NCBI RefSeq assembly: GCF_024362525.1
Contig: NZ_CP101458.1
Coordinates: 434,001-498,000 of the forward strand
Source of the DNA: Natrononativus amylolyticus
GTDB lineage: Archaea; Halobacteriota; Halobacteria; Halobacteriales; Natrialbaceae
DNA length: 64,000 nucleotides
Direction: 5' to 3'
Made by a program: the position numbers and the translations under genes. The notes under the pieces were generated by a model. The model was given only the letters and a program-made list of their open reading frames with translations. It made no database searches and was not told where the DNA came from. Position 1 is the stretch's first letter, and each line of letters begins with the position of its first letter. Below are positions 8,683-10,125 of this stretch, one piece after another.

Positions 8683-10125
8683 ATGGAGACCCCAACACCT
8701 GACCGACGAACTGTTCTTGCGGCAACGGGCGGCCTCGCCCTTCTCGGGGCGGCGAGTACTGCATCAGTGAGCGCCTCCTCCTCGGATGCACAGCAGCGTG
8801 CTGGTACCGTGCCGTACACGTACGATTATCCGGTGATGGGAACGAATACGCGCAACCCGACGGTGACGTTCTACGGCAACTTCGGCTCTTCATACAGTCA
8901 GCGCTTCGCGCGGAACCACCTTCAGCGAATTATCCAGGAGTTCGTCAAACCCGGCAAGCTCAACCTCGAGTTCCGCCACCTCTCGGAGAACCCGGATAGC
9001 CCGAGTTCGGGCTACCTGTGGTCGAACGTCGCGGACGAACGCTACATGGCGGAGGTCGTCCAGACGACCTGGCACTACGAGCCCGAGAACTTCTGGTCGT
9101 TCTTCCAGTACATGATGGAGAACCCGCCGTCGGGCGGCTCGTTCACCAACAGCGACGCACGCGCCGCCCTCGAGGCAGCGGGCGTTCGCAACTACGTCCG
9201 GATCCCCAACGAGGCCAACCGCGGCTGGTTCACCCACCACGTCGAACACACGACGGAAACCGCGAAGATCGACGACATCCCGTCGATCCCCCGGCTGGTG
9301 ATTCGCGGAGAGCACCTCAGCGGTAACGACGGCGACGTCCTCGACTGGCTCGAGTCCCACGTCTCCTCCTGGAACGAGCCGATTCACATGGGATCGTCCG
9401 CCGACGGCTCGAGTTCGGGATCGGACGACTCGGGACCACAGCTCTCGCGAAGCGAGTGGACGATCATGGACGGGACGCGCTACGAGACGCCGGTGTACGA
9501 GATCGACAGCGGCGAGCCGGGTCCGACCGGGTTCGTCGTCGGCGGCCAGCACGGCATCGAACCCGCCGGCTGGGAGGCCGCACACAACCTCCGTGACATG
9601 ACGCCGAAGAGCGGCAAACTCGTCGTCATCCCGGAAGCCGATCGCACGGCGATCAGGGCCAACACTTACAGCGGCGACGGCGGGAACCTGAACCGCCAGT
9701 GGCCGTCTGGCTCGCGGCCGAGTTCGCCGCTCGCTCGAGCGATCTGGAACGAGATCGAGGCACAGGACCCCGACGTCATCCTCGACCTGCACAGCTCTCA
9801 GGGCATCTACGGCGGCTCGCCTTCCGGCGTCGGCCAGGCGATCTTCCCGACGCCGAACGCCCGGAGCGGGGCGAACGAGGTCATCGACGAACTGAACGAG
9901 CGCCACGTCAGGCCCGCAGGCTACAGCGGCGATCACCTGTTCAGCCGCGGCAACGACCAGACCGGCGCCAACCCGCTGCTCTCGCACAAGATCGGCGGCG
10001 ACACCGACGCCCTCGGCTTCCTCTTCGAGACCACCCGGTCGGGTGTCCCCCTCGAGACGCGTATCGACTGGACGACCGTCGCTTCGGTGAAGATGCTGCG
10101 CCGCGGCGGACTGGTTCTCGAGTAA
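8683..10125 (+). CDS. Exported fusion of a cysteine-less DsbA-like domain and an M14/AstE-type metallohydrolase
   Basis: A twin-arginine signal (DRRTVLAATGGLALLG, residues 7-22) precedes a thioredoxin/DsbA-like domain (about 45-230). It has the usual first strand VTFYGNF and a cis-Pro region IPSIPRLVI (199-207). The place of the CPYC active site holds Ser69-Ser-Tyr-Ser72. A Ser/Gly/Asp linker (236-253) leads to a zinc hydrolase of the succinylglutamate desuccinylase / carboxypeptidase kind. Its residues are His290 and Glu293 (QHGIEP), the NLNR box at 335-338, His370 (LDLHSS) and Glu449 (FLFETT). The hydrolase looks intact, whereas the redox site cannot work. Substrate is unknown, and cell-surface peptide or amide cleavage is inferred. 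Confidence 0.85.
   Translation: METPTPDRRTVLAATGGLALLGAASTASVSASSSDAQQRAGTVPYTYDYPVMGTNTRNPTVTFYGNFGSSYSQRFARNHLQRIIQEFVKPGKLNLEFRHLSENPDSPSSGYLWSNVADERYMAEVVQTTWHYEPENFWSFFQYMMENPPSGGSFTNSDARAALEAAGVRNYVRIPNEANRGWFTHHVEHTTETAKIDDIPSIPRLVIRGEHLSGNDGDVLDWLESHVSSWNEPIHMGSSADGSSSGSDDSGPQLSRSEWTIMDGTRYETPVYEIDSGEPGPTGFVVGGQHGIEPAGWEAAHNLRDMTPKSGKLVVIPEADRTAIRANTYSGDGGNLNRQWPSGSRPSSPLARAIWNEIEAQDPDVILDLHSSQGIYGGSPSGVGQAIFPTPNARSGANEVIDELNERHVRPAGYSGDHLFSRGNDQTGANPLLSHKIGGDTDALGFLFETTRSGVPLETRIDWTTVASVKMLRRGGLVLE

Follow-up and report, generated by a model that had tools for sequence, protein, structure and literature searches.

A DsbA-like domain without active-site cysteines fused to an AstE-type hydrolase in a conserved, putatively exported family of haloarchaeal proteins

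The window that we analyzed is a stretch of 64,000 nucleotides from Natrononativus amylolyticus (NZ_CP101458.1, positions 434,001 to 498,000). The gene at positions 8683–10125 of its forward strand encodes a fusion of a DsbA-like and an AstE-like domain, and a residue count found no cysteine among the 480 amino acids of this protein (P0001). The ORF translation has a Tat-type start (PDRRTVLAATGGLALLG), and its first 32 or so residues (positions 8683–8778; DRRTVLAATGGLALLGAASTASVSA) form a putative Tat signal peptide that lacks a lipobox cysteine and is disordered in the structural model; among relatives, the Pfam TAT_signal match is weak. Because of this signal sequence, we infer that P0001 is exported by Tat in folded form, which agrees with a first-pass annotation of the same DNA that had called the protein exported. 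The signal is followed by a predicted thioredoxin-fold domain of the BdbD/DsbA type (residues 47–231, positions 8821–9375), a linker rich in serine, glycine, and aspartate (residues 232–254, positions 9376–9444), and a predicted zinc hydrolase domain of the M14 type that resembles AstE and AspA (residues 255–480, positions 9445–10122). Databases label such proteins only as "succinylglutamate desuccinylase/aspartoacylase family protein." This name, which is that of a cytosolic amino-acid enzyme, reveals neither the export signal nor the dead DsbA domain.

When compared to Pfam as a single sequence, P0001 falls below the curated cut-offs for Thioredoxin_4 (18.6 bits versus 23.2) and for AstE_AspA_cat (20.3 bits versus 25), so we took the domain assignment from homologues and from structure. 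The relatives score 44.5–54.8 bits against AstE_AspA_cat, with L119 at 54.8 (labels of this form are our own, for relatives and their loci). A profile built from the DsbA-like relatives matched BdbD at 1e-20, and a profile built from the hydrolases matched 2qj8 at 1.8e-12 and Csd4 at 2.9e-9. With 33 relatives as input, AlphaFold placed a thioredoxin fold with a helical insertion at residues 47–231 or so (pLDDT mostly 80–98), a disordered linker (pLDDT below 50 at residues 233–243), and a second folded domain at residues 255–478. The full-length model has a pTM of 0.59 and so does not fix the placement of the domains relative to each other. In Foldseek searches, the first half matched BdbD (3eu4, E = 1.5e-10, TM-score 0.81 on the target). 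For the second half, the matches were Csd4, Mlr6093, DoeB, and M14 carboxypeptidases; the solved AstE-type relatives among these matches are 314–330 amino acids long, with TM-scores of 0.43–0.49 on the target. At the level of predicted structure, this confirms that the first half has a thioredoxin fold of the BdbD/DsbA type and that the second half has an M14-type hydrolase fold.

The first-pass annotation had claimed that serines replace both active-site cysteines of the DsbA-like domain while the cis-proline is kept, and the alignment bears this out. Ser69-Ser-Tyr-Ser72 (positions 8887–8898; codons TCT TCA TAC AGT) falls in the same columns as the CPYT, CPVT, or CPYC motifs of relatives, and the column of the cis-proline (P203, positions 9289–9291) contains proline in all intact rows. 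Thus P0001 resembles the BdbD/DsbA oxidoreductases (PDB 3eu3/3eu4) in its thioredoxin fold with an inserted helical domain, its cis-proline, and its probable export, but it is fused to a hydrolase and lacks CxxC. Because both active-site cysteines are missing, the first half is incapable of thiol-disulfide chemistry.

The zinc-binding and catalytic residues that had been noted in the second half are indeed present and conserved across 63 sequences. The predicted zinc ligands are H290 and E293 (HGIE, positions 9550–9561; conserved in 62 and 63 sequences, respectively) and H370 (positions 9790–9792; 63 of 63), and the predicted catalytic glutamate is E449 (positions 10027–10029; 63 of 63). In the NLNR substrate-binding motif (residues 335–338, positions 9685–9696), N337 is present in all 63 sequences and R338 in 55. 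The HxxE...H zinc site, the NxNR motif, the catalytic glutamate, and the M14 fold are shared with the AstE/AspA family (Pfam AstE_AspA_cat; for instance Mlr6093, 2qj8, and DoeB, 6twm). In contrast to that family, the hydrolase of P0001 is fused and probably exported, and at about 225 amino acids it lacks the C-terminal part of the AstE/DoeB architecture that is present in the longer solved relatives, so the specificity of AstE or DoeB cannot be transferred to it.

The pairing of the two domains had been described as unusual. The fusion is real, but it is not unique: a search of 392 genomes of the order found the same architecture in 8 genomes of Haloferacaceae from three genera, besides the window's own genome, and a class-wide sample added one more. 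The carriers include Haloferax prahovense, H. gibbonsii, H. larsenii, H. elongans, H. mediterranei, and Halobellus rufus, and the linker between the domains in the Haloferacaceae proteins is shorter than that of P0001 or absent. None of the 13 distinct fused sequences has a cysteine at either motif position. The serines are not invariant (the motifs are SSYS, SEAS, SEES, SEDS, SDAS, SDSS, SESS, SGSS, and DPAA), and the cis-proline is kept in those fused sequences that are part of the motif alignment. When we scanned genome contigs, the single protein found no relative, and an alignment-based scan found 29. Of 61 relatives, 38 had a match, nearly all of them to the hydrolase half. The closest relative of the hydrolase half (L002, 73% identity) is a stand-alone paralogue in P0001's own genome. 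Our literature searches found no description of the fusion or of its family.

Between pairs of Haloferax and Halobellus fusions, dN/dS was 0.12–0.29 for the cysteine-less half and 0.08–0.21 for the hydrolase half, and both halves are under purifying selection. These observations bear on the idea that P0001 is a case of local decay, in which a DsbA gene was fused by accident and is drifting. The DsbA half of P0001 has diverged strongly (its end branch is 1.44), and in a broken copy from Haloferax massiliensis (L144:5998-6727) the DsbA part is shortened and the hydrolase is in a different frame, as decay would have it. But the fused homologues elsewhere share the loss of the cysteines and the purifying selection, and the frame is open at every other fused locus that we examined. 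Because the fusions are conserved, local decay is already largely refuted, and we consider it very improbable. The fusion is a conserved haloarchaeal family rather than a local mutation. Neither of the two refuting outcomes that the first-pass annotation had named, the absence of a thioredoxin fold from the first half or homologues with CxxC that would make this copy a local mutation, was observed.

How did the cysteines disappear? Stand-alone haloarchaeal relatives that are exported by Tat retain the first cysteine, and threonine or serine stands where the second would be (CPYT, CPVT, CPSS); CPYC or CPFC is found in just four outgroup rows. We left the motif columns out when building a tree of the DsbA-like domains. 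In this tree, a clade of 55 rows (support 100/99) lacks the resolving cysteine throughout, which indicates that the common ancestor of this clade already had threonine or serine there. The first-pass annotation had proposed that each cysteine was lost by the change of a single base. This is wrong for position 72, whose cysteine was gone by the time of that ancestor; only Cys69 was lost within the lineage of P0001. The same tree implies at least three losses of the nucleophilic cysteine, all of them in multidomain proteins that carry either the hydrolase or a β-helix. Fusion does not force this loss, because CPYT persists in one β-helix fusion (L123) and in two lectin-like ones (L130 and L138).

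The two trees give conflicting views of how the fusion arose. The DsbA halves of all of the fusions form one clade, with modest support (92/68) and long branches. In the hydrolase tree, P0001 pairs with the stand-alone L002, and a strongly-supported branch (99/99) separates it from the fusions of Haloferacaceae, which speaks against a simple single origin: it seems that either there were two separate fusions or the hydrolase half was swapped. We also considered whether YDYPLMAGTQ in L002 might be the scar of a deletion from a fused ancestor, and rejected this: stand-alone hydrolases of Haladaptatus begin alike (e.g., WTYPIREGTKDET).

The DsbA-like proteins have other features of interest. Many cysteine-bearing members (such as L041, L134, and L124) have Pro-His-His after the last β-hairpin, past the cis-proline, and no cysteine-less member does; these proteins could possibly have a Cys-His-His metal site. 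A strict coupling of the cysteine to the two histidines can be rejected, as there are CPYT or CPFT proteins that lack them (L118, L132, L135, L137, and L145), and a test by independent pairs had at most three pairs and was underpowered. The stand-alone CPYT-type proteins of Natrialbaceae (L006, L039-L055, L128, L129, L134, and L143) have long C-terminal tails of low complexity that are rich in aspartate and glutamate. Most of these tails have a cysteine within their last few residues (...DLPVDC, ...DDEC, ...DCPF), which could substitute for the lost resolving cysteine or could serve for attachment.

A second type of fusion has a right-handed β-helix (Pfam Beta_helix) followed by the DsbA-like domain (L058, L062, L063, L114, L057, L123, L080, and L081), with motif YPNT, GPYT, DSED, or CPYT. 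Also, a weak match to H-type-lectin-like repeats is found at the C terminus of a hydrolase (L081:7861-9462) and of the DsbA-like proteins L130 and L138. The presence of this module on both types of proteins suggests a shared pool of extracellular modules.

In several genera (Natronococcus, a genus that we label g8, Haloarchaeobius, and Haladaptatus), the DsbA-like domain and the hydrolase are encoded by separate genes that lie roughly 0.3–2.5 kb apart, with outer flanks that differ. For one given gene, the chance of such proximity is about 1% (this is arithmetic from at most 8 hydrolase-like genes in a genome of about 4.5 Mb). Because the unfused genes are repeatedly close together and because the fusions exist, there is good evidence that the two domains work together.

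The genes around the relatives suggest a substrate. In Haloferacaceae, the fused gene is usually flanked by GlmM and GlmU, all in the same orientation, with an AsnB-like amidotransferase and GlmS next; several genomes then have a CPYT DsbA-like gene and a glycosyltransferase of the GT39/PMT type. H. mediterranei ATCC 33500 carries its cluster on the plasmid pHME505; the fused gene there (E6P09_RS17210) adjoins glmU and has no GlmM directly upstream, and the cluster continues with a PylC-like ATP-grasp enzyme, a DUF354 protein, two nucleotide-sugar dehydrogenases (closest to UDP-GlcNAc and UDP-ManNAc dehydrogenases, of the TviB/UDP-ManNAc type), and an acyltransferase. A related cluster in Haloarchaeobius encodes β-helix-DsbA proteins, a hydrolase whose C terminus is lectin-like, two polysaccharide deacetylases, a PMT-type transferase (PMT_2), GlmM, DUF1616, and YdjM. 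In Halobacterium bonnevillei, a β-helix-DsbA gene adjoins a PMT-type transferase, and at one Haladaptatus locus, GlmU and GlmS are near the pair of DsbA-like and hydrolase genes. The common theme is probably a surface polymer of N-acetylated amino sugars that bears uronates, together with enzymes that form amides. The neighbors of P0001 itself (cytochrome bc genes, an ORF similar to Na+ symporters, and MetRS) include no glycan genes, and in Natronococcus and genus g8, which belong to the same family, the pair lies outside of any glm cluster.

According to the first-pass annotation, the DsbA fold might present peptides to the hydrolase. The neighborhoods of the relatives speak against this, as they indicate an amino-sugar polymer and not proteins. 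A related alternative is that P0001 is a nutritional carboxypeptidase that trims extracellular peptides so that they can be taken up, with the DsbA-like half providing a peptide-binding groove left over from the redox enzyme. The M14 fold, the NxNR motif, the similarity to M14 carboxypeptidases in Foldseek, and the retention of the cis-proline, where peptides dock, in all intact members would fit this, as would a CPVT relative in the same genome (L006) that adjoins an oligopeptide ABC transporter. However, the fused homologues sit in clusters for amino sugars and polysaccharides rather than for peptide uptake, and the DsbA half of P0001 has diverged strongly, so this alternative seems unlikely.

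Alternatively, the DsbA-like half might bind no substrate and merely aid folding or stability, either as an intramolecular chaperone for a hydrolase that is folded before Tat export or as a spacer. The half is cysteine-free and far diverged, and hydrolases that lack it are found in many genomes and include L002. But its dN/dS is as low as that of the enzyme half, and the repeated linkage of the separate genes and the fusion of the domain to β-helices and lectin-like repeats suggest that it has a function of its own. We therefore doubt that folding is its sole role.

We put the chances at about even that P0001 is instead an exported zinc amidohydrolase that acts on an amino-sugar surface polymer and carries a non-redox accessory domain with a thioredoxin fold. 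Tat would export the two-domain protein in folded form. The C-terminal half would be an amidohydrolase of the M14 fold, in the AstE/AspA/Csd4 branch, whose activity is suggested by the intact site. It would cut an amide bond (an N-acyl, uronamide, amino-acyl, or peptide link) of the extracellular polymer and would thereby trim or remodel amide bonds that were made by the enzymes of the cluster; we propose this because of the intact zinc site and the gene context of the relatives. The thioredoxin-fold half may have been retained as a non-catalytic helper that holds the polymer or a partner protein, or that keeps the enzyme at the surface. Our reasons for proposing an accessory role are the loss of the cysteines, the conservation of the domain, and its shuffling among proteins.

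In Foldseek, the hydrolase half matched best (E = 1e-9) to Csd4, a peptidase M99 from Helicobacter pylori (4wck/4wcl). Csd4 is a secreted enzyme that acts on a cell-wall polymer, which is similar to what we propose for P0001. Two Haladaptatus relatives are annotated as "M99 family" in public records; the Pfam model for peptidase M99 did not match P0001, and its scores for relatives were 14.2–26.4 bits, with a cut-off of 27. P0001 has a histidine where native Csd4 has Gln46 (the entry 4wcm is a Gln46His variant). Unlike the setting of Csd4, Archaea have no peptidoglycan.

For the first half, the closest analogy may be to ERp44 and TMX5 (both CRFS), which are monothiol thioredoxin-fold proteins whose altered CxxC motif serves for binding instead of redox turnover; they keep the first cysteine and trap their clients covalently (PMC13384778, PMC11443168). 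By analogy, the CPYT relatives might trap clients in this way. P0001, in contrast, lacks even the first cysteine, and the loss of its thiols is in keeping with a role in binding or in structure.

More tentatively, we suggest that a DsbA-type enzyme was turned into an exchangeable extracellular module in haloarchaea. The resolving cysteine would have been lost, and many members would have gained Pro-His-His (possibly as a Cys-His-His site for binding metal or trapping clients, loosely like ERp44). The last cysteine and the histidines would then have been lost upon fusion to a β-helix or to an AstE-like hydrolase, leaving a binding domain without redox activity that belongs to an undescribed system for an amino-sugar surface polymer (glmS/M/U, NDP-sugar dehydrogenases, GT39, ATP-grasp, DsbA-like, and hydrolase). 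The stepwise decay of the redox site from CxxC to CxxT to no cysteine, with the fold kept and the last step repeated, offers a good set of natural variants in which to study the function of a thioredoxin fold that no longer has its chemistry. The comparison also points to a putative surface-polymer gene cluster, which our literature searches did not find described in haloarchaea and which is present in a model species, H. mediterranei.

A few other observations concern the gene neighborhoods. In the N. amylolyticus genome, the locus of L006 (L078, C1:2680000-2699900) also has a gene for a Rieske-domain protein next to L006, and 15 kb away is another copy of the exported hydrolase, with an acidic PKD-like extension at its C terminus. 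Natronococcus has a wall of poly-glutamine glycan, which is a possible link, and a literature search for this link found no paper. In two genomes of genus g8, a gene for rod-determining factor A (RdfA) lies about 4–8 kb from the pair of DsbA-like and hydrolase genes (L071:13695-14372 and L072:18402-19145); Csd4, the top structural match of the hydrolase half, is a cell-shape enzyme.
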